Below, in pieces: positions 6,796 through 24,861 of a stretch of DNA of 64,000 nucleotides. Each line of letters opens with the position of its first letter. Positions within the stretch are counted from its first letter, which is position 1. The stretch comes from Caldicellulosiruptor saccharolyticus DSM 8903 (GTDB lineage: Bacteria > Bacillota > Thermoanaerobacteria > Caldicellulosiruptorales > Caldicellulosiruptoraceae). The notes under the pieces are model-generated. The model saw only the letters and a list, made by a program, of their open reading frames with translations. It was not told where the DNA came from and searched no databases. The DNA lies in contig NC_009437.1 of NCBI RefSeq assembly GCF_000016545.1, positions 2,754,501 through 2,818,500 on the forward strand, in the 5' to 3' direction. The position numbers and the translations under genes were made by a program.

Positions 6796-6824
6796 TTGAC
6801 CAATTCAAGGAAAAGTAATATAAT
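6796..6824 (+). promoter_or_regulatory. Promoter of the herA-nurA operon
   Basis: TTGACC (6796-6801), 17-base spacer, TATAAT (6819-6824). Near-perfect vegetative promoter about 54 bases before the HerA start. Confidence 0.85.
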
Positions 6825-6877
6825 TTTTATAAACAATTTGGGTATTTTGAAATTTAATTAAAAAGGGGGCTTTCGGT

Positions 6878-8923
6878 TTGGAAAATAGTCTTTCAAATAT
6901 CATTCAACAGATGAGTGAAAAATCAATAATTGTTCAAGAGATTGAAAGTATTGTTCAAAATGCTCGCTTTGTGGGTTTTGCAGTTGATGTAACTTACTCT
7001 ACTTTAACAGTACTTACCAATGATGCATGGAAAGAACGTGCAAATGGAATACCTCATAATAGTTTTCTCTTTGCAGCGTCTCCTAATTGGTTAAAACCAA
7101 TTTTTGATAACTTTTCTTACCATCAACTAAAAGTAAATGTAAACTCTAATGAAGAACCAGAAATAATTCTCCTGCGTGTTACAGAAGAATATGAACTTCC
7201 CAGTAAAGATATATGGTTAGCAACAAAAATTGATAAGTTTAAGAGTTTAGAAACTAAAGAATTATATGACGGGGTTATTTTTGATGAATTGTCACGAAAT
7301 GAAATACAGTATGCTGGTCTCAAATGTCGCGTTCTTGGTACGTTTTATTTTGATGAATATGGAAATCTTACTTTCGGATCAGATCTCGAAAATTATTATG
7401 GGGCCAAAATTCTCTATGTGTATAAACCTTCTACTGAAGGCTTAGAAAACATAGTAAACTTTGAAACTCGAAAAAAGATGCAAGAATTATCTGCCGAAAA
7501 TAGCATTAACTTGAGTGAACTTGTTCCTTTTGGTTATGTCCGTTATACGTCAACACAACGGTTACAAAAGAAAGAAGGAAAATCAGCCCAAGTTTATATA
7601 AATCCAAATGATTTTTTAGCTCGCAGAACGGCACTTTTTGGTATGACGCGAACAGGAAAATCTAATACAGTTAAAATCTTAATTAAATCAATTAAAGAAG
7701 CGGCCCAAAAACACGGTAAGAAGGTAGCTCAAGTTATATTTGATGTAAATGGTGAGTATATATACATTAACCCTCAAGATAAAGGAGCTATTTCTACTGA
7801 TATTGATGATTGTTTTATTCTTACTTTTAATCCCAATATAAATACAAACAATAATTCAATAAGGAGTTTACAGTTTGACTTATTTAAAGACTTAGGAGTA
7901 ACTCATGAATTAGTTGTGTCACTACTAAGGAGTCAAGGCCTAAGTGCATCTACCGACTTAGAAGCATTTTTAGGTATTGACATGTATGCTTATTGTAACG
8001 TCGATTCTAATGATTATGCCGGAGTAAATAGGGCTAATAGAATTAAAGCTCTTTATAAATATATATTGGCTAAAGTACTGGGAATCAATGTTACAATTCC
8101 CAACCCATTTGGTGATTTCATTTTAAACCAACTTGAAGGAATAGAAGAGAGTCTTCGTAAAAAAACAACATTTACAATTGAAGAATTCGAGATGATCTTA
8201 AATGAAATTCACGAACGAAGAGATACAGTAGTAACATCATCACGGAATAAATTGTACCGAGAAGATTTCGAAACATTACTTAATTTTGCAGTAAAGAAAA
8301 ACTCCCAAGGAAGACCAATAGCAGGTTATGGACACTTGCGAAGGATACACTTAGAAAGATTCCACTTAGCTGGTGCTGATACCTATTTTGATGAAATTCT
8401 AAAAAAGATAAAAAACGGAGAAACTATACTAATTGATATGGTATATGGCAGTGAAGAGGTAAGAAAACTTCTAAGTACAAAAATAGCTACTCTTATATTC
8501 TCTGAAAATCAAAAATTGTTTACCGAAGCTAAAGAACCACCATATGTAATTCTATATATTGAAGAAGCTCATAACCTTATAGGGAAAGATATGGAGCCTA
8601 CTGAAATCTGGCCTCGAATAGCTAAAGAAGGTGCAAAATACAACATAGGTTTGGTTTATTCAACGCAAGAACCATCAACCATTAGTAGAAATATTTTGGC
8701 CAATACTGAAAATTGGTTTGTTACACATTTAAACAATGAAGATGAAATAAAGACAGTGATACGTTATTATGATTTTGCAGATTTTAAGGAATCTATTATG
8801 GTAGCGAAAGATAAAGGATTTGCAAGAGTAAAAACTTTTTCATCTAATTTTGTTTGTCCAGTACAAATCAATCTTTATCAACCATCTGTTACCCAAAGTG
8901 GAAGGGAGGGAGCAGGAGGTTAA
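6878..8923 (+). CDS. herA: HerA-like DNA-translocating ATPase
   Basis: 681 residues from a TTG preceded by AAGGGGG. A beta-rich N-terminal part fits a HAS-barrel. The FtsK/HerA ATPase core follows: Walker A FGMTRTGKSNT at about residues 254-264, Walker B VILYIEEAHN at about 557-566, and IAKEGAKYNIGLVYSTQEP typical of HerA/DUF87 proteins. HerA forms hexameric rings that pump DNA and work with the NurA nuclease in end resection in archaea; bacterial HerA-NurA pairs are often in defence islands. The next gene overlaps or abuts its stop. Together with the convergent methylase it looks like a restriction-type cassette (inference). Confidence 0.85.
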   Translation: MENSLSNIIQQMSEKSIIVQEIESIVQNARFVGFAVDVTYSTLTVLTNDAWKERANGIPHNSFLFAASPNWLKPIFDNFSYHQLKVNVNSNEEPEIILLRVTEEYELPSKDIWLATKIDKFKSLETKELYDGVIFDELSRNEIQYAGLKCRVLGTFYFDEYGNLTFGSDLENYYGAKILYVYKPSTEGLENIVNFETRKKMQELSAENSINLSELVPFGYVRYTSTQRLQKKEGKSAQVYINPNDFLARRTALFGMTRTGKSNTVKILIKSIKEAAQKHGKKVAQVIFDVNGEYIYINPQDKGAISTDIDDCFILTFNPNINTNNNSIRSLQFDLFKDLGVTHELVVSLLRSQGLSASTDLEAFLGIDMYAYCNVDSNDYAGVNRANRIKALYKYILAKVLGINVTIPNPFGDFILNQLEGIEESLRKKTTFTIEEFEMILNEIHERRDTVVTSSRNKLYREDFETLLNFAVKKNSQGRPIAGYGHLRRIHLERFHLAGADTYFDEILKKIKNGETILIDMVYGSEEVRKLLSTKIATLIFSENQKLFTEAKEPPYVILYIEEAHNLIGKDMEPTEIWPRIAKEGAKYNIGLVYSTQEPSTISRNILANTENWFVTHLNNEDEIKTVIRYYDFADFKESIMVAKDKGFARVKTFSSNFVCPVQINLYQPSVTQSGREGAGG

Positions 8924-8924
8924 T

Positions 8925-10304
8925 ATTGAACTCCTGCGAGCAATTATGCCATATATAAATGAATTTTCAAACAAAATTTCCCATGAACGTATTATTAAAA
9001 ATCCAAAAGTAATAGAAAAACTTAAGGAATTCAAAATATCATATGAAATTCCTGCACTTCAGACAAACGATATAATTAAGTTGTTTCAACAAATAGAAAC
9101 AAAGGAAGCATCACAAAAAATCAAATTTGTTTTTACAGTAGACAGTTCCTATGTAGAGGTTCCCTTAAATAACAACATTCCTTCTGCTACAGTGGGTATC
9201 GTTAACTTTAGCGTTTCTATTGTTGATCTTGAAAAGAAATATTCTCTTAGTAAAAGTGAATTTATTGATCCTCAAAAATTTAATGATATGTTTAATTCTT
9301 CTTTACTTACTTTCGTAACTCCGGGTCATAACGTTATATTGAAAGAAGACCTTAGTACAATTCAATCCATAAGATTGTCTATTTTTGAGTTTTTCTCTCA
9401 AAAACCTTTTAATAACTTATCGTTACTTGATACACTAAAAGATATCTTAAAATCAAAAGATGATAAAATTTCTTTTTTGTGTCCAAATCCTGACTGCCAT
9501 ACAAATATTGATTGGGATTTGAAAAATTCAAATGACTATATTGACAATTGTCCGAGGTGCGGTGAAAGAATATATCTTTCTGATTGGCTTCGTCTTCATG
9601 AAGCAGTAGATGAGGAACTAGGAACTGGGTCTATTCTTTCTAGATTTTCACAAGCAAGTGAACATCTGATTGTTTTAAATCTTTTACAAACAATAATGAA
9701 TAATCAGTTCTTAAATAATCTACTAGAAAATATTGCTTTTATAATAGATGGTCCTCTTGCAATTTATGGTCAGCCTGCTAAACTTCATGCATATATACTT
9801 CGATATTTACATCAGCTTAGAGACAAAGGATTTATATATTTCGGTGTAATCAAAAGTGGAAGACTAAAAGACCATTTTACTATTTTAGAAGAAAGACTGA
9901 AACAACAGGGTATTAATATTCCTTATAATTCTTTTATGCTTGTAAATGATGAGTATCGCTTTAAATATATTCAAAGGCGCCCAAAACAAAATAAATATTT
10001 TGGAATAGAAGTTCTTTATGGACAAGATTTTCTTTTTTACTCGGACAAGGGTAAAAAATATGTTATTTCACTTCCATATCCAGTACCAGAAAAAAATGAA
10101 TCAGCTTTTGAAAAATATATCTTTAACCATAATACTTACGGTACATTACCAATTGTATTAGATTTACTCAATAGAATTAGTATTGACCTTTACGAAGATG
10201 CGGTTTTACCAATTGCTTTAGCACATAAATTTGCCTCTATAAGCCTTAATCCTGGTATTAAAATCTTAGAAATATTTACTAAAAATTATATCCAACAACA
10301 ATGA
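8925..10304 (+). CDS. nurA: NurA-like nuclease with an internal zinc ribbon
   Basis: About 460 residues. A Cys4 zinc ribbon (CPNPDCHT...DNCPRCGERIYLS) lies near residues 185-215. A NurA-like nuclease core follows, with the Asp motif FIIDGPLAIYG near 275-283 and a helical RYLHQLRDKGFIYFGVIKSG segment. NurA is a 5'-3' and endonuclease partner of HerA. The best ribosome site (AGGAGG, 8914-8919, inside the herA end) points to the rare ATT at 8925. In-frame alternatives are GTG 8898, TTG 8850 (deep in herA) and ATG 8946. The zinc ribbon within the protein is unlike archaeal NurA and may help in DNA or HerA binding (inference). Assignment rests on motif and neighbour. Confidence 0.65.
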   Translation: MELLRAIMPYINEFSNKISHERIIKNPKVIEKLKEFKISYEIPALQTNDIIKLFQQIETKEASQKIKFVFTVDSSYVEVPLNNNIPSATVGIVNFSVSIVDLEKKYSLSKSEFIDPQKFNDMFNSSLLTFVTPGHNVILKEDLSTIQSIRLSIFEFFSQKPFNNLSLLDTLKDILKSKDDKISFLCPNPDCHTNIDWDLKNSNDYIDNCPRCGERIYLSDWLRLHEAVDEELGTGSILSRFSQASEHLIVLNLLQTIMNNQFLNNLLENIAFIIDGPLAIYGQPAKLHAYILRYLHQLRDKGFIYFGVIKSGRLKDHFTILEERLKQQGINIPYNSFMLVNDEYRFKYIQRRPKQNKYFGIEVLYGQDFLFYSDKGKKYVISLPYPVPEKNESAFEKYIFNHNTYGTLPIVLDLLNRISIDLYEDAVLPIALAHKFASISLNPGIKILEIFTKNYIQQQ

Positions 10305-10305
10305 T

Positions 10306-11163
10306 TTAAAAAATAATATTTTCCGTCCCTTCAATTCTAGAAGGGACTATTATTTTGTTGTAAAACATTATTTCTTTTTTCCTCTTAATAGTTCCCGCAG
10401 TATAAATTACATCGATGAGTAAATAAGGTATTCTTTCAGAATAAAACTCCATAACCTCAGTTGCCAAATCATACGTCATTAACCAAGGAATATTTACCAT
10501 ATTGGATAAAATAAATTGGGCTAAATAAGCATGATCTTCTTTTTTGTAAAAATTAGTATAAAGTTCGCTACCTTTCTGATAATATGGTGGATCTAAAAAA
10601 ACAAAAATTTTTTCTTTCCTATTTATAATTTTATTCAAAAAATCAACAGCATCTAAATTATATATTTCTATTTTATCCCTCATTGCAGATATGTTCTTAA
10701 TAATCTTAATAATTCGTTCTTTGTTAAAACGGCAATCAATTTTGTATTTTCCGGTTTGAAGATATCCACCTATCGGTCCAGCGTTTAGTATACCTGAGCG
10801 ATTTGTTCTATTTAAAAAAAGCGTAGAAAAACCTAATTCTAGCACATCAGTTGGTTCTTTAAATTTCCTTTTTATTTCTTTATAAGTTTCAATCGTTATC
10901 GGCGTATTTTCTATCATTTTACATAATTCTTCTGGATAATTCAAAATACTAAACCACAAAGCATATATGGACGGATCAATATCATTTAAGATTATCATAT
11001 CTACTTTCTTATTGAATAACAATGCTAATGCTAAACCGGCACCGCCCGCATACGCTTCAACATAACTATAGTTATTTAATGAATTAAAATCAATTATTTC
11101 AGCAACAAAGCGATATAAAAAACTTTTCCCACCTGGATATCGTAAAGGAGAATAAGATCTCAT
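10306..11163 (-). CDS. Dam-type (D12 class) adenine-N6 DNA methyltransferase
   Basis: 285 residues, normal length for the Dam/DpnM group. The N-terminal SPLRYPGGKS gives motif X, YVEAYAGGAGLAL is the SAM-binding motif I, and VFLDPPYYQ (DPPY) at about 190-197 is the catalytic motif. It transfers methyl to adenine in a target that cannot be read from the sequence. GGAGG lies 5 bases before the ATG. It converges on the nurA-like gene, their stops being only 1 base apart. Such methylases next to nuclease/ATPase genes usually protect self DNA, so it may mark the host for the HerA-NurA pair. An orphan methylase is the alternative. Confidence 0.9.
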   Translation of the reverse strand: MRSYSPLRYPGGKSFLYRFVAEIIDFNSLNNYSYVEAYAGGAGLALALLFNKKVDMIILNDIDPSIYALWFSILNYPEELCKMIENTPITIETYKEIKRKFKEPTDVLELGFSTLFLNRTNRSGILNAGPIGGYLQTGKYKIDCRFNKERIIKIIKNISAMRDKIEIYNLDAVDFLNKIINRKEKIFVFLDPPYYQKGSELYTNFYKKEDHAYLAQFILSNMVNIPWLMTYDLATEVMEFYSERIPYLLIDVIYTAGTIKRKKEIMFYNKIIVPSRIEGTENIIF

Positions 11164-11293
11164 TCATACCTCCGTCCTCATTTTCATCAAAATAAAAAAC
11201 CTAATTCTTTATAATACTATCTTTAATTATAAACTTTAATTATAAAACAATCATTATAAGAAAAATAGCCGAGCTTGTAAAATTAAAACAGAA

Positions 11294-11326
11294 GAGGAGA
11301 GTGCAGCCTTTAGGCACACTCTCCTC
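11294..11326 (-). terminator. Terminator at the end of the replication/recombination operon
   Basis: GAGGAGAGTG/CACTCTCCTC, a 10-bp perfect stem that contains the primase stop codon in its arm, followed on the minus strand by a T-rich stretch. Confidence 0.7.
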
Positions 11327-12431
11327 GAGCTTTTGCAAGCAGATAGTCATCAAAACCTTTATAACTCAAGTTAAATCCAAGCCTTAAAATGCTAATTCCG
11401 GCTTCTTTGAATTTCTTTTTTAGCTTTTCAAATGCATCTTGAACTTCTTTTTTATCATAGTAGTCGTTGTCAACTACTACATATACTTCACCTTCATATT
11501 TCAATCCCAGATTCTTTACAACTTCAACTGCAGAATCGTGGCTATTTGCAATACCAGGGATTCCTATGAACAATTCGCCATCCATTAGATATGAACATAT
11601 GTCTGCCTTCAGTATACCTTCGATTATAAAAGCTCTGCGGCATTTTTCTTCGTTGAACGAACCTGTAACATGAATGAAGTTTTTAGCTGAAGTACCTGTC
11701 GGAACATTCCCCGATGAAAACCAGCGATACTTTCCGCTTGTGCTATTCTCTTTGACAATTCTTACTTGTAAACCTTGAATTCTGCCTTCAAAGTCTTTGG
11801 CTGGTATACAAAAACCGTCGTAGTTGATAAAATCCCAACTACCGTCAGAGTGCCTAAAGAATCCCGGTACTCCTTCTAGGCTTAACCCCTTTTCAATTAA
11901 TGTTTTACAGATTTCCTTTCTTTTCCTCTCATCTCTTACGTTCAAACTCTTGTAACTCTTAAACTTTATGAATGTTTCGGTTAAACCACGCAAAAGTAAA
12001 TGCTCTTTGTGTTTTTCATCTAAGTCTAACAACTTTATGAATTCTCTATAGACTTTATCTCTTTGCTCTACTGGTGCAAGATTGTCGGACTTAACAGTGA
12101 TATTATAGTTAACTGTAGGTTCTGCAACAGCTTTTCGTGCTCTTTTTGTACCTTTCGTGAGTATCTGCGTAAGTTCCTTGTAAGCCTCTTTTGTGTCCAT
12201 GTTGCTCAGCCAAGCGTATAGCTGAAGTGCGTTTCCACCTACACCACACTTGTGACAGAAAAATGTGTTCTTGTAAACATTGATATAAAGGTGCCCTTCT
12301 CCTTTTATCTTGTGTATATCACACTTCGGACAATAAGCGTTCAACTCGTTACCATGTTGTTTTACAATGTTAAGTCTTAACAAGTTCAACACATCATCCA
12401 TCCTGATGTCAATAAGTTCATGCTTCATCAT
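11310..12431 (-). CDS. CHC2 zinc-finger / Toprim primase-like protein
   Basis: 373 residues. The N-terminal primase zinc finger (YCPKCD...FFCHKCGVGGNALQL) spans about residues 33-70. The C-terminal half has a Toprim-like core: AFIIEGILKADICSYL (Glu) and VYVVVDNDYYD (DxD) near 315-325. Proteins of this build are primases or primase-like factors of phages, plasmids and integrative elements. No helicase domain is attached. It is the last gene of the minus-strand operon that starts near 18425, and has its own leader with a Shine-Dalgarno-sequestering stem. Confidence 0.75.
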   Translation of the reverse strand: MMKHELIDIRMDDVLNLLRLNIVKQHGNELNAYCPKCDIHKIKGEGHLYINVYKNTFFCHKCGVGGNALQLYAWLSNMDTKEAYKELTQILTKGTKRARKAVAEPTVNYNITVKSDNLAPVEQRDKVYREFIKLLDLDEKHKEHLLLRGLTETFIKFKSYKSLNVRDERKRKEICKTLIEKGLSLEGVPGFFRHSDGSWDFINYDGFCIPAKDFEGRIQGLQVRIVKENSTSGKYRWFSSGNVPTGTSAKNFIHVTGSFNEEKCRRAFIIEGILKADICSYLMDGELFIGIPGIANSHDSAVEVVKNLGLKYEGEVYVVVDNDYYDKKEVQDAFEKLKKKFKEAGISILRLGFNLSYKGFDDYLLAKARGECA

Positions 12432-12435
12432 GGCA

Positions 12436-12514
12436 CTCCCTCTCCCTTCTTATTTTTTTACTCAGTTTTGTTTTACTCGCTTTTGAGTAAAACTCCGACA
12501 AGAGGGAGAGGGAG
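12436..12514 (-). promoter_or_regulatory. Leader of the primase gene with SD-sequestering stem
   Basis: In mRNA sense CTCCCTCTCCCT (5' arm, 12514-12503) can pair over 12 bp with AGGGAGAGGGAG (12447-12436), which contains the ribosome site. Between them GAGTAAAAC (12493-12485 region) and its inverted copy form a 9-bp hairpin (12470-12493). The 5' arm can also pair with GAGAGG just after the RadC stop. Several GAGTAAAA boxes mark it as a member of the repeated leader set. Confidence 0.6.
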
Positions 12515-12521
12515 CACCTCT

Positions 12522-13013
12522 CTATAGTATTCCTGCTTGTGAGAACGAATAATAATCTTCTTCTGTTACAATAATATGGTCGTTGAGCCTTATGTCCAGC
12601 AGTTGTGCAGCTTCTTTTATTTTCTCTGTGGTTTTGATATCGTCCATTGATGGTTTTGCAGAACCACCAGGATGGTTATGCGCAATGATTATGCTGTGAC
12701 AGTTTGTCAGTAGTACCCTCTTGAAAATTTCACGTGTATTAGCAGGAGCCATGTCGAGTGTCCCTCTGCTTACTTCAAAAATAGCATTCAGGTTTAACTG
12801 CACATCCAGACAAAGTACAACTAAAACTTCTTCAGGTTCTAAATGTAATTTTAAATGTTTTTTTAGAAAGTCAACTGCAAGCCTAACATTCGCAAGTTGA
12901 AAGTTATATGCAAAAGACTCCTCTTTTATTAGTGAAATTCGGTATTTTTGTGCAATACATCTTGGCTCAGGTGCATATACCTTTCTATCAAAAAAACTAA
13001 GCTGGTTTTTCAC
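12522..13013 (-). CDS. radC: RadC/JAB-domain protein
   Basis: 163 residues, shorter than chromosomal RadC (about 220) and lacking the N-terminal helix-hairpin-helix region. The metalloprotease-like JAMM site is present as IIIAHNHPGGSAKPSMDDI (HxHPxG...D). Short RadC-like proteins are common on mobile elements. Whether they act as peptidases or in recombination is unknown. Starts at GTG 13013 after GGGGGAGTTAAAC. The next gene follows after a leader of 90 bases. Confidence 0.85.
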   Translation of the reverse strand: MKNQLSFFDRKVYAPEPRCIAQKYRISLIKEESFAYNFQLANVRLAVDFLKKHLKLHLEPEEVLVVLCLDVQLNLNAIFEVSRGTLDMAPANTREIFKRVLLTNCHSIIIAHNHPGGSAKPSMDDIKTTEKIKEAAQLLDIRLNDHIIVTEEDYYSFSQAGIL

Positions 13014-13024
13014 GTTTAACTCCC

Positions 13025-13079
13025 CCTTTCGGTTTTACTCCGAAAGGAGAGGGAAGAGAAGGATACCCTTCTCAACCCT
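13025..13079 (-). promoter_or_regulatory. Leader of radC: post-stop hairpin plus SD-sequestering hairpin
   Basis: First hairpin GAGAAGG-GTAT-CCTTCTC (13056-13073), extended by AGGG/CCCT, lies right after the upstream stop. Second hairpin CCTTTCGG-AGTAAAA-CCGAAAGG (13025-13047) carries the GGAGTAAAACC box in its loop region and runs into the GGGGGAG ribosome site. Confidence 0.6.
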
Positions 13080-13640
13080 GCTTTTTTTACTTTTTTGTCT
13101 TCCTGAGTTGATAAGTTATACTTCTTTCACCAAGCTGTTCTAAGACATCCTCAGAAATCTTAAGTTTTTTAAGCGACGTTAAAGTGAAGTTTGCAAATTC
13201 AATTGGGTCCTTTCCAAGACTTTTAATATATTCCCAAACTTTACGAGTGTCAAAGCTAAAACTATTTACCGGAGTCAAGCGCCATACTCCTGAATCTGTT
13301 ACAAGTTCTTCTCCCGTTTCTTCTAAATATGTTTTTAATGCATCTTTTGCAGCATTTAATTTCGCTTCAAGTTCTTCAATGTACTTTGCAAGTTCCAATG
13401 CTTTTTGTTTGTCAGTAATATTTTCGCCAAGGCATACTGCTGAGTATGGACAACCTCTGCATGATGAGTAGTTTTTCTCAAATTCTTCTTCAATGCCACT
13501 CATTGAATACAAGAATACTTTCTCATTCATCATTTCTTCAACTCTTGACATCCAGTCCAATGTCTCAACCAGTTTGTTTTGTTCTAACTCTATTTCAACT
13601 TCTTCGTTGTACCTCAAATAGAAGAATGACAGGTAGCGTG

Positions 13641-14949
13641 GGGAGTTAAAATAAAATTGTGTCCACTGTATAATTAGTGTTGAAATAATCACCAAAGGGG
13701 GGCTCACGATTATGGAGAAAAATGAAATTTTTGAAACCGCTAAAAATATGGCTATCGAGCAAGTATTAAATATGTATTGCTCCAAAGATGATCCTACTCG
13801 CCCAGCTTTAAAACAGCTTTTGGAAAACTTGCTCGATTGCTTTATGTTATCAGAAAGAACTGTTTACCTTGCTAAAAACGAAAACGATAAAGGCAATGGT
13901 TTTTACGGCAGAAAACTTGCAACACCTGTTGGCAGCCTTGAAATTTCTGTTCCTCGCACACGCTCTGGTAACTTTCGACCTTCCATTCTCCCTGACCGCT
14001 ACAAAAGGGTTGACAGCTCATACACTGACCTGCTCATGTCTTTAGTCGCCAATGGTTACTCAGAAAGTTCTCTTGTCCAAACTCTTAAAAGCATGAATCT
14101 GCCTTATTCTGAAGACGAAATCGAAAAAATCAAAAACGATCTTAAAAACGAGCTTCAACTTTTCAAACAAAGAGAACTTCCTGAAAGTGCTTTTGCTCTT
14201 ATCATTGACGGTTACCATTGCGAAATTAAAGATAACTCAAAAGTTAAACAAGCTACTTGCTATGTCGTGCTTGGCATTGATTTAGAAGGCAAAAAAGATA
14301 TCTTCGGTATCTACACTTTCTTCGGCAAAGAAAACAAAGCCGATTGGATGAGAGTCTTTGACGACTTAATTACAAGAGGTCTTAAAAAAGTCTTAATAGT
14401 TGTAAGCGATGATTTTCCAGGCATTATCGATGCTGTTAGACTCGCTTATCCCCTTGCCGACCATCAACTATGTTTTGTTCACCTTCAACGCAATGTCAGA
14501 AAACATATGGCAAAAGATGATGCTTCCGTTTTCAACAAAGAGCTTGATAAACTAAGAACTTCCTCTGCTGATTTTGACGAAGCTATTTCAAAGTTCAAAC
14601 TTCTTTGTGAGCAATACTCCTCAAAATATCCTCGATTCATAAAAGGTATTTGCGAAAAAGCAGAGTTCTATCTTGCACATATGAGGTATCCTGAAGATTT
14701 AAGAAAGTACATTTATACTACTAATGCTGTAGAAAGCGTAAACAGTATGATTGAAAAGATAAGAATAAACTCCGGTGGTTATTTTCAATCTGTAGAAGTT
14801 TTAGAGATAAACATATATTTACAAAGAGAAAACTTGCGTCGGGGCAAGTGGAAAAACGGAGTACCTATTCTTAAAAAATGTAGTTACAATATATTACAGC
14901 TCTACAATATACGCTATGAAATGGAAACACAAAATTCTTGACAAGTCTC
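13641..14949 (+). mobile_element. IS256-family element, copy 1
   Basis: 1309 bp. Left end GGGAGTTAAAATAAAATTG, right end reading inward GAGACTTGTCAAGAATTTTG, imperfect inverted repeats. Target duplication GGTAGCGTG at 13632-13640 and 14950-14958. The intact duplication shows a simple insertion into the nuclease gene. All three copies in the window encode the same protein. Confidence 0.9.
13712..14941 (+). CDS. IS256-family (mutator-type) transposase, copy 1
   Basis: 409 residues with the DDE layout of the mutator group: LIIDGYHC (first Asp), VVSDDFPGI (second Asp), LCFVHLQRNVRKH, and TTNAVESVNSMIEKIRI (Glu). It catalyses cut-and-paste or copy-out transposition of the element. The ATG follows AAAGGGGGGCTC. 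Full length; the two other copies encode an identical protein, so all three are recent. Confidence 0.95.
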   Translation: MEKNEIFETAKNMAIEQVLNMYCSKDDPTRPALKQLLENLLDCFMLSERTVYLAKNENDKGNGFYGRKLATPVGSLEISVPRTRSGNFRPSILPDRYKRVDSSYTDLLMSLVANGYSESSLVQTLKSMNLPYSEDEIEKIKNDLKNELQLFKQRELPESAFALIIDGYHCEIKDNSKVKQATCYVVLGIDLEGKKDIFGIYTFFGKENKADWMRVFDDLITRGLKKVLIVVSDDFPGIIDAVRLAYPLADHQLCFVHLQRNVRKHMAKDDASVFNKELDKLRTSSADFDEAISKFKLLCEQYSSKYPRFIKGICEKAEFYLAHMRYPEDLRKYIYTTNAVESVNSMIEKIRINSGGYFQSVEVLEINIYLQRENLRRGKWKNGVPILKKCSYNILQLYNIRYEMETQNS

Positions 14950-15376
14950 GGTAGCGTGTTTCATAACCGTTCTGCTTAAGTGCATTTGCATAAAGGTATA
15001 ACTGTTTTACATCTGAACTCTTCTGCCAGCTTGTCTTCCAGTCCAACACTTTTGATGTTCTGTTATCAAAAAGGTCAATCACAGCTGTGTATTCTGTGCC
15101 AGCAGGTGATGTGAATTTGAGTTCAAACTCAACGTATTCAGGATGAACGCCAGCATAATGTTTTACCTTCTGGGTAAGGAACTGTTTAACATTCTCTCCT
15201 TCGACACCAGTAGTTAAAAATTTTGCAAGTTCTTCGTGGATGATTCTGCCAAACTCCATTGCAGGTGTGGTGTACTCAATTCCTTTTACGTATTTGTAGT
15301 AAAAGGCTTTCTGGCACTTCTCAAAAAGCTGAAGTCTTGAGTAACTTCCTTTCATAACATCAATTAACTCTATCAT

Positions 15377-15432
15377 GTTCAACTCCCCTTTCTTAATTGT
15401 TTTACTCCTGAGGCAGGGGACAAGTCCCTGCC
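15377..15432 (-). promoter_or_regulatory. Leader of the RecB-type nuclease gene
   Basis: Post-stop hairpin GGCAGGG...CCCTGCC (15412-15432), then a GGAGTAAAACA box and AAAGGGGAGTTGAAC before the ATG at 15376. TCCCCT in the hairpin could alternatively pair with AGGGGA of the ribosome site. Confidence 0.55.
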
Positions 15433-15438
15433 AAAAGG

Positions 15439-15669
15439 CTACGCTGGTACATTTTCTTTTTTCCTTACTCTCAGGACTGCTCTTAACACATCTGTTGCCA
15501 TAACAAAAGTGTCCTCATCGACAAATTCTCGCACTTGTTTTAGTGCGTCTTTTATCAGCTCATCGTCGACTACTTTAATTACAGTTCCGTTTTTCTTTAC
15601 AGTGAGTCTAATTTTGCCATCAACAAATGTTATAAGTACAACTTCCCCGTTGTTTACAACTCTTATCAT
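15439..15669 (-). CDS. Hypothetical protein of the element (76 aa)
   Basis: I do not recognise it. A beta-rich N-terminal half (MIRVVNNGEVVLITFVDGKI, TVKKNGTVIKVVDDE) is followed by helices (DALKQVREFVDEDTFVMATD). It is a real gene by its position in the array: ATG directly after GGGGGAGTTGAACC, own leader, and a post-stop hairpin. Acidic and soluble. Confidence 0.7.
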   Translation of the reverse strand: MIRVVNNGEVVLITFVDGKIRLTVKKNGTVIKVVDDELIKDALKQVREFVDEDTFVMATDVLRAVLRVRKKENVPA

Positions 15670-15712
15670 GGTTCAACTCCCCCTTCTTATTGGTATAACT
15701 CCGAGGCAGTTG
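15670..15712 (-). promoter_or_regulatory. Leader of the 76-aa gene, best copy of the repeated unit
   Basis: mRNA-sense GGAGTTATACCAATAAGAAG followed by GGGGAGTTGAACC and the ATG. Two GGAGTT boxes about 22 bases apart; the second is the ribosome site. Confidence 0.65.
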
Positions 15713-15724
15713 CCAGAAAGTTTG

Positions 15725-15838
15725 TTGTTGAAATACTCTGAAAGTGGTATAATTATTTTAGGGGATGTCGGGGATTTATTTTAAAGCGCAGGCGTTGAGC
15801 AGGAAGTGGTAAAGTTTTACTTTACCACTTCTTTTTTT
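15725..15838 (+). ncRNA. Candidate antisense RNA (type I antitoxin) with its promoter
   Basis: Plus-strand promoter TTGTTG (15725-15730), 17-base spacer, TATAAT (15748-15753). A perfect terminator GAAGTGGTAAAG/CTTTACCACTTC (15803-15831) with a T run ends the transcript near 15838, giving an RNA of about 80 nt. It is the only plus-strand signal in a minus-strand operon. It overlaps the last codons and 3' end of the small membrane-peptide gene at 15817-15963, the geometry of txpA/ratA-type pairs. Confidence 0.6.
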
Positions 15839-15963
15839 ATTTGAACCCTGAAGGGTTTTATGCTTAGACTGATTCTATAATTCGCTTTAGTCAGACAAAT
15901 TGCAAGTACACTTACTGCAACCACTACACTGGCTGAAACAATTTTTATTACTTCAATACTCAA
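15817..15963 (-). CDS. Small membrane peptide, candidate type I toxin (48 aa)
   Basis: From TTG 15963, preceded by AAAGGGGGTG at 8-base spacing: MSIEVIKIVSASVV..., a hydrophobic helix (about residues 3-24) and a basic tail (SIKPFRVQIKKEVVK). One membrane helix plus a charged C-terminus, a sequestered ribosome site and an antisense RNA at the 3' end are hallmarks of type I toxins. I do not recognise a named family. A longer reading from upstream GTG/ATG codons would run through the sequestering stem and is less likely. Toxicity is inference. Confidence 0.6.
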   Translation of the reverse strand: MSIEVIKIVSASVVVAVSVLAICLTKANYRISLSIKPFRVQIKKEVVK

Positions 15964-15967
15964 CGAT

Positions 15968-16033
15968 GTCACCCCCTTTGTTTTTGCATGTTTATTTCTC
16001 CCCAACATCCCCATATCTAAAAAAGGGGGTGAC
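15968..16033 (-). promoter_or_regulatory. Long-range SD-sequestering stem ahead of the membrane peptide
   Basis: GTCACCCCCTTT (mRNA 16033-16022) is perfectly complementary over 12 bp to AAAGGGGGTGAC (15979-15968), which contains the whole ribosome site. The loop is 42 nt. Fold-back like this delays or blocks toxin translation in known type I systems. Confidence 0.7.
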
Positions 16034-16043
16034 TTGCCTGCGT

Positions 16044-16093
16044 TGTTGACTCATTAATTGGTGTAACTCAGAGGGAGAGGATGAACCTCTCCC
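16044..16093 (-). repeat. Orphan copy of the operon leader unit after bet
   Basis: Hairpin GGGAGAGG-TTCAT-CCTCTCCC (16073-16093) directly follows the bet stop, then TGAGTTACACCAATTAA and TGAGTCAAC, a degenerate copy of the GGAGTTATACC...GGAGTTGAAC unit. No start codon follows at the expected place, so a gene may have been lost here. Confidence 0.55.
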
Positions 16094-16098
16094 AAATT

Positions 16099-17109
16099 TT
16101 AGGCAGCATTTTCTACTTTGTAATCGAGTATTAAGTTATTTTCTTTTTGGATTTTAGCTTTTATTGTCATATTCTTTTCAAACTGCATTTTTTCGTTTGC
16201 TTCAGCGTATAGAATTTTCTTTTCTGCATCTTCTGTGTAAGCAGTTAATTTGAAATAATCTTTTCCGTTTTTTGCTCTAATAATATTTACTTCTCTGATG
16301 AAAAATAATTGATATTCATCGCCTTGAAACTTTTCTGCTGGTTGTACTTCTGGAGTTGATTGTTTTGATTCTTCGACAGGTCTAACTACTTTCTGCAAAG
16401 CTTGAACTTCTTCTTGATTTTTCATCTTTTCTTGAACTTTTTGGTCTTCTGCCTGTTCAACTTCTTCTGGCTGGACAACTATAGCAGGCTTGTTTTCAAC
16501 TTCTTGTGGGTCTGACATTTCTTCAATGCCGTAAAGTCCCTGAAGCTCTTCCATGAATGCTTCCCTCAATGCTTGTTCAAGTGCGACTTTTCGAATCATA
16601 GTAGCCGGCATTTGCTGCCAGCTTCTCATAGGTTGCCCGTCTTTTCTTCTTCTGAGGTATTCCGAAAGCGATACTGTGATTTTTAGAGGTACCTGCCAGT
16701 CTTTTCGAAAGACTTCTGCCCAGCCTCCTATAAGGGTCTCGTTTTCAAGGGTAAGTGTGCCTTCTCTAAATTCGATACTGCCATTGTCATGCCTTACAAC
16801 AATGCCTGCTCTCCAGCCGTTGCATAGTCCACTCTTTTGCGCACGTCGGATAAAGACATCTTTACTAACAACTAAGCTTGCCGGTTCGTCATTAAATTTT
16901 ATTAAATATACGTCTTTTCTAAATGGATTCAACTTCTGGGCTTCACACAGTTTCATGAACAGTACAACTTCTTCGTCGCTTACTTTTGTTGCATCACCGC
17001 TGACAAGGTACCTTTTTACTAAGTCAAATGTAAGTCTAATTTCTTTTCCGTCTTCAGAAGTGTAAACTACCTCAGGAATATCGTTCCTTTTTATAATACT
17101 CTTTTCCAT
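16099..17109 (-). CDS. bet: Phage-type single-strand annealing recombinase Bet
   Basis: 336 residues. The N-terminal two thirds show the Bet/RecT-like core: LFMKLCEAQKLNPFRKDVYLI, LVVSKDVFIRRAQKSG, GIVVRHDNG, GGWAEVFRKDW, and PATMIRKVALEQALREAF. A Gln/Glu-rich linker (about 215-275) and a beta-rich C-terminal part follow that resembles an extra OB-like module. Bet anneals complementary single strands made by a partner exonuclease; the broken RecB-type nuclease two genes downstream is the likely partner. Typical of phages and integrative elements. Confidence 0.9.
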   Translation of the reverse strand: MEKSIIKRNDIPEVVYTSEDGKEIRLTFDLVKRYLVSGDATKVSDEEVVLFMKLCEAQKLNPFRKDVYLIKFNDEPASLVVSKDVFIRRAQKSGLCNGWRAGIVVRHDNGSIEFREGTLTLENETLIGGWAEVFRKDWQVPLKITVSLSEYLRRRKDGQPMRSWQQMPATMIRKVALEQALREAFMEELQGLYGIEEMSDPQEVENKPAIVVQPEEVEQAEDQKVQEKMKNQEEVQALQKVVRPVEESKQSTPEVQPAEKFQGDEYQLFFIREVNIIRAKNGKDYFKLTAYTEDAEKKILYAEANEKMQFEKNMTIKAKIQKENNLILDYKVENAA

Positions 17110-20482: not shown

Positions 20483-21791
20483 GGGAGTTAAAATAAAATT
20501 GTGTCCACTGTATAATTAGTGTTGAAATAATCACCAAAGGGGGGCTCACGATTATGGAGAAAAATGAAATTTTTGAAACCGCTAAAAATATGGCTATCGA
20601 GCAAGTATTAAATATGTATTGCTCCAAAGATGATCCTACTCGCCCAGCTTTAAAACAGCTTTTGGAAAACTTGCTCGATTGCTTTATGTTATCAGAAAGA
20701 ACTGTTTACCTTGCTAAAAACGAAAACGATAAAGGCAATGGTTTTTACGGCAGAAAACTTGCAACACCTGTTGGCAGCCTTGAAATTTCTGTTCCTCGCA
20801 CACGCTCTGGTAACTTTCGACCTTCCATTCTCCCTGACCGCTACAAAAGGGTTGACAGCTCATACACTGACCTGCTCATGTCTTTAGTCGCCAATGGTTA
20901 CTCAGAAAGTTCTCTTGTCCAAACTCTTAAAAGCATGAATCTGCCTTATTCTGAAGACGAAATCGAAAAAATCAAAAACGATCTTAAAAACGAGCTTCAA
21001 CTTTTCAAACAAAGAGAACTTCCTGAAAGTGCTTTTGCTCTTATCATTGACGGTTACCATTGCGAAATTAAAGATAACTCAAAAGTTAAACAAGCTACTT
21101 GCTATGTCGTGCTTGGCATTGATTTAGAAGGCAAAAAAGATATCTTCGGTATCTACACTTTCTTCGGCAAAGAAAACAAAGCCGATTGGATGAGAGTCTT
21201 TGACGACTTAATTACAAGAGGTCTTAAAAAAGTCTTAATAGTTGTAAGCGATGATTTTCCAGGCATTATCGATGCTGTTAGACTCGCTTATCCCCTTGCC
21301 GACCATCAACTATGTTTTGTTCACCTTCAACGCAATGTCAGAAAACATATGGCAAAAGATGATGCTTCCGTTTTCAACAAAGAGCTTGATAAACTAAGAA
21401 CTTCCTCTGCTGATTTTGACGAAGCTATTTCAAAGTTCAAACTTCTTTGTGAGCAATACTCCTCAAAATATCCTCGATTCATAAAAGGTATTTGCGAAAA
21501 AGCAGAGTTCTATCTTGCACATATGAGGTATCCTGAAGATTTAAGAAAGTACATTTATACTACTAATGCTGTAGAAAGCGTAAACAGTATGATTGAAAAG
21601 ATAAGAATAAACTCCGGTGGTTATTTTCAATCTGTAGAAGTTTTAGAGATAAACATATATTTACAAAGAGAAAACTTGCGTCGGGGCAAGTGGAAAAACG
21701 GAGTACCTATTCTTAAAAAATGTAGTTACAATATATTACAGCTCTACAATATACGCTATGAAATGGAAACACAAAATTCTTGACAAGTCTC
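20483..21791 (+). mobile_element. IS256-family element, copy 2
   Basis: 1309 bp, ends as in copy 1. The two flanks do not match each other: left TAGCTCTCA (20474-20482), right TGCTATGTA. The left flank is the reverse complement of the sequence left of copy 3 (TGAGAGCTA, 23544-23552), showing that copies 2 and 3 exchanged flanks by recombination. Confidence 0.9.
20554..21783 (+). CDS. IS256-family transposase, copy 2
   Basis: 409 residues, identical to the proteins of copies 1 and 3, with the DDE residues intact (LIIDGYHC, VVSDDFPG, NAVESVNS). Present between the istB part of IS21 and an inverted fragment of the TnpB-related gene. Confidence 0.95.
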   Translation: MEKNEIFETAKNMAIEQVLNMYCSKDDPTRPALKQLLENLLDCFMLSERTVYLAKNENDKGNGFYGRKLATPVGSLEISVPRTRSGNFRPSILPDRYKRVDSSYTDLLMSLVANGYSESSLVQTLKSMNLPYSEDEIEKIKNDLKNELQLFKQRELPESAFALIIDGYHCEIKDNSKVKQATCYVVLGIDLEGKKDIFGIYTFFGKENKADWMRVFDDLITRGLKKVLIVVSDDFPGIIDAVRLAYPLADHQLCFVHLQRNVRKHMAKDDASVFNKELDKLRTSSADFDEAISKFKLLCEQYSSKYPRFIKGICEKAEFYLAHMRYPEDLRKYIYTTNAVESVNSMIEKIRINSGGYFQSVEVLEINIYLQRENLRRGKWKNGVPILKKCSYNILQLYNIRYEMETQNS

Positions 21792-22013: not shown

Positions 22014-23552
22014 TGTTAATGATAAAATAAAATCATCAGAAATGACACTAAAAATTCCCCACCTGCCACTTAAAAAGAAGCCTTCTGTAGTGTAGAATGG
22101 AAAGTATGGGAAAACTACAGAAGGAGAAGATAACAAGAAAATGTTGGGGGTTGCAATGCACACAACAATCTACACACTTTTCAAACGGGGATACAACAAA
22201 AGTCAAATAGCAAGATTGTTAGACGTGGATAGAAAAACTGTTAGAAAAGTAATCCATGACATTGAACAGAAAGGAAAAGTCGAGAGAAAATCAAAAGGTT
22301 CTGTATTAGATAATTACAGGGAGTTCATTGAGGTAAAGGTTAATAAAGGACTTTCAGCAAAGAAAATACATCAAGACTTGAAAGCGGAATTTGGTTTTGA
22401 AGGAAGCTACTCGAATGTAAGAAGATATGTCCAAAAGGTAAAACAAAAGATAGCAAATTCAAAGGTGTACATGGTTTTAACAACACTGCCTGCAGAAGAA
22501 GCTCAAGTTGATTTTGGATATATAGGCAAGATAAAAGTTGATGGCAAATTCAAAAAAGCATGGGTATTTACAATGGTTTTAAGTTATTCAAGATATATGT
22601 ATGCAGAGATAGTATTTGAGCAGACAGTTGAAACATTTATACAGTGTCATAAGAACGCATTTAAGTATTTTGGTGGGGTAGTAGAAGTTGTAAAGATAGA
22701 CAACTTAAAAGCAGGTGTATTGAATGTTGATTTTTATGAGGCGCAAATACAAAAAGATTATGCAAGTTTTGCAAGCCACTATGGATTTTTACCTCAGCCA
22801 TGTAGGGTATACACACCGACTGATAAAGGCAAAGTAGAATCAGCAATTAAGTATGTTAAGCAAAATTGTTTTTCTGGGGAAGAATTTAAGGATATTGATG
22901 AGGCGAGGGAGTATTTAAAAAACTGGCTTGACAATGTAGCAAATGTGAGAGTACATGGCACAACCAAGAAAGTTCCCAAAGAAGTTTTCATCTCAGAAGA
23001 GAAAGAGAAGTTAATAGCTCTTCCTGTTGAGGAATATTACATATCAAGAAGTTCAATTCATAAAGTAGCTACTAACTGTCATCTCATATACAAAGGGAAC
23101 TATTATTCAGTGCCATATGAGTATGCAGGAGGTGAAGTAGAGGTAGTTGAGATTGGCAGTTTTTTGAGGGTGTTCTTTGAGGGTAAAGAAATAGCCCTTC
23201 ATCAGATTGTCAAAAACAATGAGAAGGGCAAATACGTAACCAACAAAGAACACTATCCCTCGTCTAAGAATATAACAATTGAGGATATAATGTCAAGACA
23301 GAGGGAGCAAATGGCAGAAATTGGGGAGTGGGCGTTGAAGTTTTTTGAAGAATTTACCGAGCAAGAAGGATTTAAGAAGTATGACTACAGAAGCATAAGT
23401 GGGATAATAGCATTAAAAGAAAGATATGGATCAAAGATGGTAGACAATGCGTGTAAGAGGGCTTTAAAATTCAGAGGATTGAGTTACAAGCTTGTGAAGA
23501 ATATATGTGAAAAAGGGATAAGCGATTTACCTGAGTATGAAGATGAGAGCTA
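22014..23552 (+). mobile_element. IS21-family element, istA-containing part (inverted)
   Basis: Terminus TGTTAATGATAAAA at 22014 next to GCCTTAT (complement of the ATAAGGC repeat). An internal CCCCACCTG repeat lies near 22057. It ends at 23552 where IS256 copy 3 interrupts istA. Orientation is opposite to the istB part. Confidence 0.8.
22081..22124 (+). promoter_or_regulatory. Inverted repeat ahead of istA
   Basis: CCTTCTGTAGT (22081-22091) and ACTACAGAAGG (22114-22124): an 11-bp perfect stem with a 22-nt loop. The 3' arm covers part of an AAGGAG site, so it could limit istA translation when read from outside. Confidence 0.6.
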
Positions 23553-23553
23553 G
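22156..23553 (+). CDS. istA: IS21 transposase, C-terminus replaced by IS256 sequence
   Basis: From ATG 22156 (GGGGGT at 5 bases; an earlier ATG at 22141 is possible). N-terminal helix-turn-helix (NKSQIARLLDVDRKTVRKVI), DDE core with AQVDFGYIG, VVKIDNLKAGV and KGKVESAIKYV, and C-terminal beta domain. After ...PEYEDES the stop TAG is made by the junction with IS256 copy 3. The native last residues, about 27, lie at 20474-20392. Only the tail is lost, so activity is uncertain, and it is now divorced from istB. Confidence 0.85.
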   Translation: MHTTIYTLFKRGYNKSQIARLLDVDRKTVRKVIHDIEQKGKVERKSKGSVLDNYREFIEVKVNKGLSAKKIHQDLKAEFGFEGSYSNVRRYVQKVKQKIANSKVYMVLTTLPAEEAQVDFGYIGKIKVDGKFKKAWVFTMVLSYSRYMYAEIVFEQTVETFIQCHKNAFKYFGGVVEVVKIDNLKAGVLNVDFYEAQIQKDYASFASHYGFLPQPCRVYTPTDKGKVESAIKYVKQNCFSGEEFKDIDEAREYLKNWLDNVANVRVHGTTKKVPKEVFISEEKEKLIALPVEEYYISRSSIHKVATNCHLIYKGNYYSVPYEYAGGEVEVVEIGSFLRVFFEGKEIALHQIVKNNEKGKYVTNKEHYPSSKNITIEDIMSRQREQMAEIGEWALKFFEEFTEQEGFKKYDYRSISGIIALKERYGSKMVDNACKRALKFRGLSYKLVKNICEKGISDLPEYEDES

Positions 23554-24861
23554 AGACTTGTCAAGAATTTTGTGTTTCCATTTCATAGCGTATATTGTAG
23601 AGCTGTAATATATTGTAACTACATTTTTTAAGAATAGGTACTCCGTTTTTCCACTTGCCCCGACGCAAGTTTTCTCTTTGTAAATATATGTTTATCTCTA
23701 AAACTTCTACAGATTGAAAATAACCACCGGAGTTTATTCTTATCTTTTCAATCATACTGTTTACGCTTTCTACAGCATTAGTAGTATAAATGTACTTTCT
23801 TAAATCTTCAGGATACCTCATATGTGCAAGATAGAACTCTGCTTTTTCGCAAATACCTTTTATGAATCGAGGATATTTTGAGGAGTATTGCTCACAAAGA
23901 AGTTTGAACTTTGAAATAGCTTCGTCAAAATCAGCAGAGGAAGTTCTTAGTTTATCAAGCTCTTTGTTGAAAACGGAAGCATCATCTTTTGCCATATGTT
24001 TTCTGACATTGCGTTGAAGGTGAACAAAACATAGTTGATGGTCGGCAAGGGGATAAGCGAGTCTAACAGCATCGATAATGCCTGGAAAATCATCGCTTAC
24101 AACTATTAAGACTTTTTTAAGACCTCTTGTAATTAAGTCGTCAAAGACTCTCATCCAATCGGCTTTGTTTTCTTTGCCGAAGAAAGTGTAGATACCGAAG
24201 ATATCTTTTTTGCCTTCTAAATCAATGCCAAGCACGACATAGCAAGTAGCTTGTTTAACTTTTGAGTTATCTTTAATTTCGCAATGGTAACCGTCAATGA
24301 TAAGAGCAAAAGCACTTTCAGGAAGTTCTCTTTGTTTGAAAAGTTGAAGCTCGTTTTTAAGATCGTTTTTGATTTTTTCGATTTCGTCTTCAGAATAAGG
24401 CAGATTCATGCTTTTAAGAGTTTGGACAAGAGAACTTTCTGAGTAACCATTGGCGACTAAAGACATGAGCAGGTCAGTGTATGAGCTGTCAACCCTTTTG
24501 TAGCGGTCAGGGAGAATGGAAGGTCGAAAGTTACCAGAGCGTGTGCGAGGAACAGAAATTTCAAGGCTGCCAACAGGTGTTGCAAGTTTTCTGCCGTAAA
24601 AACCATTGCCTTTATCGTTTTCGTTTTTAGCAAGGTAAACAGTTCTTTCTGATAACATAAAGCAATCGAGCAAGTTTTCCAAAAGCTGTTTTAAAGCTGG
24701 GCGAGTAGGATCATCTTTGGAGCAATACATATTTAATACTTGCTCGATAGCCATATTTTTAGCGGTTTCAAAAATTTCATTTTTCTCCATAATCGTGAGC
24801 CCCCCTTTGGTGATTATTTCAACACTAATTATACAGTGGACACAATTTTATTTTAACTCCC
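23553..24861 (-). mobile_element. IS256-family element, copy 3
   Basis: 1309 bp in the opposite direction to copies 1 and 2. Left flank TGAGAGCTA, right flank CATAGCATT: no direct repeat between them. In the un-inverted order the flanks become CATAGCA on both sides of copy 3 and TAGCTCTCA on both sides of copy 2, as expected for target duplications (7 and 9 bp). Confidence 0.9.
23561..24790 (-). CDS. IS256-family transposase, copy 3
   Basis: 409 residues, identical to the other copies, complete, DDE residues present. Being inverted relative to copy 2, the pair supplied the homologous sequence for the inversion of 21792-23552. Confidence 0.95.
   Translation of the reverse strand: MEKNEIFETAKNMAIEQVLNMYCSKDDPTRPALKQLLENLLDCFMLSERTVYLAKNENDKGNGFYGRKLATPVGSLEISVPRTRSGNFRPSILPDRYKRVDSSYTDLLMSLVANGYSESSLVQTLKSMNLPYSEDEIEKIKNDLKNELQLFKQRELPESAFALIIDGYHCEIKDNSKVKQATCYVVLGIDLEGKKDIFGIYTFFGKENKADWMRVFDDLITRGLKKVLIVVSDDFPGIIDAVRLAYPLADHQLCFVHLQRNVRKHMAKDDASVFNKELDKLRTSSADFDEAISKFKLLCEQYSSKYPRFIKGICEKAEFYLAHMRYPEDLRKYIYTTNAVESVNSMIEKIRINSGGYFQSVEVLEINIYLQRENLRRGKWKNGVPILKKCSYNILQLYNIRYEMETQNS

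Follow-up and report, generated by a model that had tools for sequence, protein, structure and literature searches.

A HerA-NurA-DNA methylase cassette of Caldicellulosiruptor saccharolyticus, a probable methylation-based immunity system with TdpAB-like folds

Introduction

TdpAB reportedly degrades DNA that lacks the phosphorothioate marks made by TdpC. SIR2-HerA (Nezha) and DUF4297-HerA are phage defences in which a HerA ring is coupled to an effector, and pairs of HerA with the nuclease NurA are classically tied to Mre11-Rad50 and DNA end processing. Here we analyse a window of 64,000 nucleotides (nt), the whole stretch from 2,754,501 to 2,818,500 of the 2.97-Mb single-contig genome of Caldicellulosiruptor saccharolyticus DSM 8903, in which genes for a HerA-type ATPase, a NurA-fold nuclease and a D12-class DNA methylase form a cassette. 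The cassette is probably a restriction-modification (R-M)-like immunity system that works without a site-specific endonuclease, that is, a TdpAB-type machine reading methylation instead of phosphorothioate.

The HerA-NurA complex of Thermococcus works as an exonuclease, and a part in defence against viruses has been suggested by the authors of that study. In the Thermus element ICETh1, one operon contains TthHB27I, NurA, TdtA (FtsK/HerA family) and a PF01555 methylase, in this order. The loss of nurA or tdtA reportedly reduces DNA donation (transjugation) by orders of magnitude, and the methylase affects transfer only slightly (PMC5365140, PMC7767461). PD-lambda-5, a prophage defence of E. coli, is termed RM+Abi-like by its authors (PMC9519451).

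Results

Three genes with intact catalytic motifs

The genes of the cassette, and the zinc ribbon within one of them, are as follows.

6878..8923, plus strand: HerA-type hexameric ring ATPase, 681 amino acids (aa), TTG start; a strand-rich N-terminal domain and a pump ATPase
8946..10304, plus strand: NurA-fold nuclease with a zinc-ribbon insert, 452 aa counted from the conserved ATG; the reading frame opens upstream, at TTG 8850
9480..9560, plus strand: zinc-ribbon insert of NurA, residues 179-205, from the sequence and the alignment of relatives
10306..11163, minus strand: D12-class (alpha) N6-adenine DNA methyltransferase, 285 aa, motif DPPY

An earlier note on this DNA had named these three genes. 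Their open reading frames (ORFs) are confirmed, and the products match Pfam DUF87/HerA (E 8.5e-14), NurA (E 2.8e-5 along the full length of the domain, with 24.2 bits against a cut-off of 21) and MethyltransfD12 (PF02086, E 4.5e-18). HerA carries the Walker A motif GMTRTGKSN and the Walker B motif EEAH; G255, G260, K261, S262, E562 and E563 are invariant in all 63 aligned relatives. It also matches 15 PADLOC HerA/mad8 models, the best at 3.5e-29. Of the 62 relatives of NurA, 60, 61 and 55 retain D66, E219 and D268, respectively, residues that by analogy with the NurA family would bind metal. The zinc ribbon that the note had proposed is confirmed, with Cys179, Cys184, Cys202 and Cys205 retained in 57, 56, 58 and 55 of the 62, respectively.

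The DPP of the methylase is invariant in 51/51 relatives, all of which match PF02086. Its closest model is PADLOC PD-Lambda-5_B (1.1e-105), and a match to PADLOC MTase_II (4.9e-86) indicates a type II kind of DNA methylase. Profile comparison finds 7m6b (7.7e-37) and DpnM (2dpm, 1.9e-17). The description as Dam-type is therefore right at the level of class (D12, Dam/DpnM-class) but no closer, as the score against TIGR00571 dam (61.5 bits) lies under the cut-off of 114.85 and the nearest model is PD-Lambda-5_B.

The same methylase subfamily also occurs in Citrobacter phage phiNP (locus L136) and a Streptococcus phage (L137), where it is paired with an AAA/OLD-like ATPase of 573-595 aa by the integrase. 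This arrangement looks like another methylase-linked defence pair. Because the subfamily adjoins such ATPases in both phages, the methylase is itself a movable part.

The methylase is linked to this HerA-NurA pair across phyla

Relatives were collected on HerA alone, by a profile scan of genome contigs (the nearest 80 of 372 relatives) and viral contigs (6 of 6), and a methylase was counted if a D12 or N6/N4 (PF01555) enzyme lay within 3.5 kb. The methylase hidden Markov models (HMMs) were built from neighbours in the survey; Pfam identity was checked for all 51 D12 rows and for one representative per N6/N4 cluster. This NurA stands beside HerA in 73 of the 86 loci. At three further loci the contig ends right after HerA and a methylase is present, and at one further Verrucomicrobia locus the contig is too short on the side where NurA would lie. 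A methylase lies nearby in 68/73 HerA-NurA loci, at 200 base pairs (bp) or less in 63 of those; 57 are D12 and 11 are N6/N4 enzymes. The 68 trios cover 16 named phyla, archaea included, and the trio is also found on viral contigs and plasmids. The methylase and HerA-NurA homologs thus do occur together in other genomes, which the earlier note had left for a neighbourhood survey to settle.

HerA precedes NurA in 68/68 loci, and the order methylase-HerA-NurA on one strand is found in 58. In the window, NurA (plus) and the methylase (minus) converge with a single base, 10305, between their stops, just as had been described. The compact convergent cassette is real here, far above chance; however, the convergent layout is a minority form, seen in 3/68 loci.

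A search of 398 genomes of the phylum gave this NurA in 10 genomes, with a methylase adjoining it in eight. The enzyme is D12 in the window's genome and in those labelled G005, G008, G047 and G356, and PF01555 in G289, G322 (a short one, 205 aa) and G347. G256 and G257 hold only NurA fragments, with no methylase by tblastn. The D12 form is also present in G035, from a 61-genome search, at 80-90% identity. Within the genus, NurA occurs in 3/12 genomes, and methylases of >50% identity in those same three only.

Two sets of controls lack the methylase. It is found in 0/9 NurA-less HerA relatives with flanks, all of them Verrucomicrobiota, and in 0/21 ordinary HerA-NurA loci of the same phylum by the same HMMs. 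Of these 21, 20 were picked by hand among the 57 genomes, out of 299, that have a NurA match, and the other is L048; one of the 21, L173, gave no HerA match. Chance linkage is excluded by the comparison of 68/73 with the control loci. Pfam was run on 104 of the 181 ORFs that neighbour the controls, and PF02086, PF01555 and PF02384 are absent from the 25 commonest of the 156 families found. Among these 25, PF07669 (Eco57I) has four members, equal to PrmA and MTS, and these are presumably RNA or protein methylases. Most often the neighbours belong to metallophosphatase and SMC/Rad50-like families. L048 itself is a separate ordinary operon in the window's genome, with NurA, HerA, a metallophosphatase and a Rad50-like gene. 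Five of the Verrucomicrobia loci without NurA (L081, L084, L093, L097 and L104) have a gene for aspartyl-tRNA synthetase nearby.

The methylase is exchanged for an unrelated enzyme

In a quick tree of 90 HerAs, in which some branches are long, the kind of methylase (D12 or N6/N4) switches at least three times. Because the methylase slot survives exchange for an unrelated enzyme, DNA modification appears to be the partner function, a function kept rather than one gene lineage. This is the strongest sequence argument for such a partnership.

HerA and NurA are closest to TdpA and TdpB

The AlphaFold model of HerA (mean predicted local distance difference test score, pLDDT, 87.3) has TdpA as its closest solved structure, with Z 31.1 and 30.4 over 532-533 aligned residues; the next match reaches Z 27.9 over 452 residues. 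The HerA sequence profile also places TdpA first (1.2e-33 versus 7.4e-20 for the next). For the NurA model (pLDDT 92.3), TdpB is the top solved fold (Z 21.3 and 18.5), followed by Sulfolobus NurA (14.8), and Foldseek ranks TdpB at 1.3e-9 with the next match at 5.1e-6. The structures concerned are PDB 8wet, 8wfd and 8y1k. A NurA profile found nothing under E 0.2 among PDB sequences, so the kinship with TdpB rests on the fold model. For NurA, the structural matches exclude a fold unlike any known.

The cassette differs from Tdp in several respects. Its NurA is longer (452 versus 358 residues) and has the zinc-ribbon insert, and its modification enzyme is a DNA methylase, whereas TdpC is said to act in phosphorothioation. 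Pfam on ten window proteins found the D12 methylase and no sulfur-transfer enzyme; TdpC itself was not a query. We therefore do not class the cassette as Tdp.

The earlier note had measured the cassette against the SIR2 and DUF4297 HerA defences. These share a HerA ring with an effector, but the effector here is a NurA nuclease and a DNA methylase is linked. They are not the nearest relatives, since TdpAB is closest by fold and by HerA profile. A HerA of that type is rejected: the score against NCBIfam HerA_antiphage is 69.7 bits, far below the cut-off of 800, the nearest structure is TdpA, and the neighbouring gene is NurA.

Comparison with other methylase and HerA systems

With type II R-M the cassette shares a type II-kind methylase (MTase_II, PF02086). 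Scans with Pfam, PADLOC and NCBIfam revealed no site-specific endonuclease at the cassette, where the methylase is accompanied by HerA and NurA only, so it is not classical type II R-M. In the PADLOC 2.0 scan, HerA and the methylase were matched separately and NurA was not matched; as far as the scans show, the trio is not modelled as a system there.

PD-lambda-5 has the methylase subfamily and the prophage setting in common with the cassette. Its partner genes differ, HerA and NurA taking their place here, and no other PD-lambda-5 model matched among 11 proteins (three of the cassette and eight neighbours), for which reason we do not class the cassette as PD-lambda-5. The repair operon of HerA, NurA, Mre11 and Rad50 has the same HerA and NurA superfamilies; in contrast to it, the cassette has a methylase, and Mre11-Rad50 is absent from the ten window proteins scanned with Pfam.

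ICETh1 resembles the cassette in combining NurA, a HerA/FtsK-family ATPase and a DNA methylase in one mobile operon. Compared by gene content and description, it differs in gene order, in the extra type IIG enzyme, in having an N6/N4 rather than a D12 methylase, and in its role in DNA donation. A plasmid search able to show Thermus relatives found none. The pairing of a zinc-ribbon NurA with a Dam-type methylase had been called less described, which needs amending: a NurA-HerA-methylase operon is in print, and the D12 form would be what is new. In our literature search, which did not extend to subscription papers, no report of the D12 form was found and ICETh1 was the only NurA-HerA-methylase operon. 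The word NurA is absent from the main text of two surveys of HerA/FtsK-based defence (PMC10853773, PMC12839542), as far as that text was available.

Mobile context and history of the locus

The cassette is accessory within the genus and adjoins mobile-element genes in the window. In a Vibrio prophage the trio lies between integrase and excisionase, in the window's convergent layout. This layout is seen in two Vibrio phage records; in the one examined, HerA is annotated as two ORFs. The cassette of Shewanella sp. HN-41 (L064) is likewise convergent.

A segment of the cassette is present twice in the genome.

9723..11287, no strand assigned: duplicated 1,565-bp segment (3' part of NurA, methylase and 124 bp), second genome copy 99.94% identical

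The second copy, at G000:C1:2940369-2941933 (locus L039, 6370-7934), is a direct duplication about 175 kb away. Beyond it lies an AlwI-type restriction gene, an arrangement shared with G005, whereas the copy in the window leads into genes of mobile elements. The cassette of G005 has an AlwI-type enzyme and two N6/N4 methylases after it; the AlwI-type enzyme adjoins the copies L036 and L039, and in L036 it has two methylases of its own. It looks as if a large insertion or rearrangement had split a defence island. A third, diverged remnant (L040) contains a full-length methylase and only the C-terminal half of NurA. Both remnants keep the methylase and have lost HerA, which fits a system in which early loss of the methylase is costly. 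With two cases, however, of which one arose by duplication, nothing is proved.

To the right of the cassette (11310-17109, minus strand) lie genes for a CHC2-zinc primase-like protein, a RadC-like protein, a PD-(D/E)XK nuclease and a Bet recombinase, which are a replication and recombination set of a phage or integrative element. PADLOC models of the RT-associated DnaG-like kind match the primase-like protein weakly. An insertion sequence of the Mutator family has copies at 13669-14949, 20511-21791 and 23550-24833, each about 97% identical to the copy at L039 1-1276.

Neighbouring genes recur at relatives of the cassette. A Schlafen AlbA_2 gene (one representative confirmed by Pfam) stands directly upstream of the methylase, in the order AlbA_2-methylase-HerA-NurA, at L051, L053, L054, L068, L074, L079, L080, L082, L090, L114 and L130, and a fourth component or a regulator is possible. 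Directly downstream of NurA, a UvrD-type helicase and a PD-(D/E)XK nuclease (representatives confirmed by Pfam) occur at L052, L061, L065, L067, L070, L087, L088, L089 and L091; they are a possible added effector pair. In L102 (4566-5981) a ThiF (E1-like) and a JAB protein lie upstream of HerA-NurA, and the near flank shows no methylase. The Deferribacter desulfuricans megaplasmid (L202) has methylase-HerA-NurA, in which an IS200/IS605-TnpB element interrupts HerA.

The start of NurA

HerA and NurA had been thought to overlap, and the long NurA ORF from TTG 8850 would indeed overlap HerA by 74 bp. However, relatives show homology only from ATG 8946 (position 33 of that ORF) onward, and in L038, a near relative, the reading frame changes shortly before this ATG. 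The overlap is therefore a start-codon artefact, and the two genes are probably 22 bp apart.

8912..8937, plus strand: inverted repeat GCAGGAG / CTCCTGC, spanning the Shine-Dalgarno sequence of NurA

This 7-bp inverted repeat at the ribosome site has a folding energy of -16.6 kcal/mol (z -2.6) in the window. It is also present, weakly, in L038 (z -1.27), and none is evident in the alignment of L037. It may couple the translation of NurA to that of HerA.

Discussion

The earlier note read the cassette as a system that tells self from non-self DNA, and this is still the best-supported reading, with linkage in 68/73 loci and co-occurrence in three of the 12 genomes of the genus. The intact motifs, the reach of the linkage over many phyla, the exchange of the methylase, the TdpA and TdpB folds and the carriage by prophage and plasmids all bear on it. 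Judged from its family, the methylase would place N6-methyladenine on one sequence throughout the host DNA. HerA hexamers and NurA, like their homologues, would form a complex and load on double-stranded DNA (dsDNA); HerA would then pump the duplex through its ring by ATP hydrolysis and NurA would cut both emerging strands. The linkage and the analogy to Tdp suggest that host DNA, being methylated, would be spared, since it would either stall the pump or nuclease or not set them off, and that unmethylated phage or plasmid DNA would be degraded in defence of the cell. If TdpAB works as described above, the cassette would be a machine of this kind in which methylation provides the mark.

Several observations weigh against this reading. 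Five of the 73 HerA-NurA loci (L065, L100, L126, L102 and L132) have no D12 or N6/N4 methylase in reach, two of them (L102 and L132) with short flanks and L100 with a type I HsdM and specificity subunit further down. On a Tolypothrix (cyanobacterial) plasmid, HerA-NurA likewise stands without a methylase, so the pair may act alone or with another partner. Of the 68 counted methylases, five are at a distance of 0.9-2.7 kb, including a fragment in L113. A DNA-recognition domain was found in neither HerA nor NurA. In addition, ICETh1, the nearest experimentally studied NurA-HerA-methylase operon, reportedly acts in DNA donation.

That operon is the model for a DNA-transfer machine, in which HerA would export donor DNA and NurA would trim it, as proposed for TdtA and NurA, with the methylase protecting or labelling the transferred DNA. 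The gene content of ICETh1 and its need for nurA and tdtA (PMC5365140, PMC7767461) favour such a role, as does the position of the cassette beside mobile-element genes. We nevertheless consider it unlikely: NurA lies upstream of TdtA in ICETh1 and HerA invariably before NurA here, in the Vibrio prophage the cassette occupies the integrase end, where cargo commonly lies, and the nearest folds are those of TdpAB.

The accessory nature of the methylase is the point of a different proposal, a defence system in which HerA-NurA is triggered by phage and kills the cell, the methylase serving, for example, in anti-restriction or regulation. HerA-SIR2 and HerA-DUF4297 are indeed phage defences, methylases of the same subfamily pair with the AAA/OLD-like ATPases beside phage integrases, and PD-lambda-5, of the same methylase subfamily by model, is labelled RM+Abi-like by its authors (PMC9519451). 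The swaps for unrelated methylases argue that modification itself is needed, and NurA has the fold of a DNA nuclease rather than that of a toxin such as an NADase, which makes this proposal unlikely as well. A HerA-NurA for DNA end processing or repair, with a hitch-hiking or orphan methylase, is somewhat less probable still, even though the genome's other pair (L048) sits with Mre11-Rad50-like genes. The methylase is linked in 68/73 loci as against none of the 21 ordinary ones, Mre11-Rad50 is lacking here, the distribution is accessory, and a repair-type pair is already in the genome. We reject a generic repair HerA-NurA on the methylase-free control loci and the separate L048 operon.

Returning to methylation-based immunity, a broader and more tentative proposal, to which we give slightly less than an even chance, is a widespread R-M class without a sequence-specific endonuclease, in which a processive ring translocase-nuclease checks base methylation while pumping. 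Such a generic check would let D12, N6/N4 and possibly type I methylases, and phosphorothioation in Tdp, serve as the self-mark.

HerA-NurA has long been regarded as a repair complex; if the immunity reading is true, one large branch of it would serve as the restriction arm in methylation-based immunity, and such immunity would be present in 16 named phyla as well as in viruses and on plasmids. This would raise the question of how a motor without a recognised DNA-reading domain tells methylated from unmethylated DNA, and also why the methylases are interchangeable. The cassette would then also be a methylation-based system in which to test ideas on the Tdp machine, which senses phosphorothioate.

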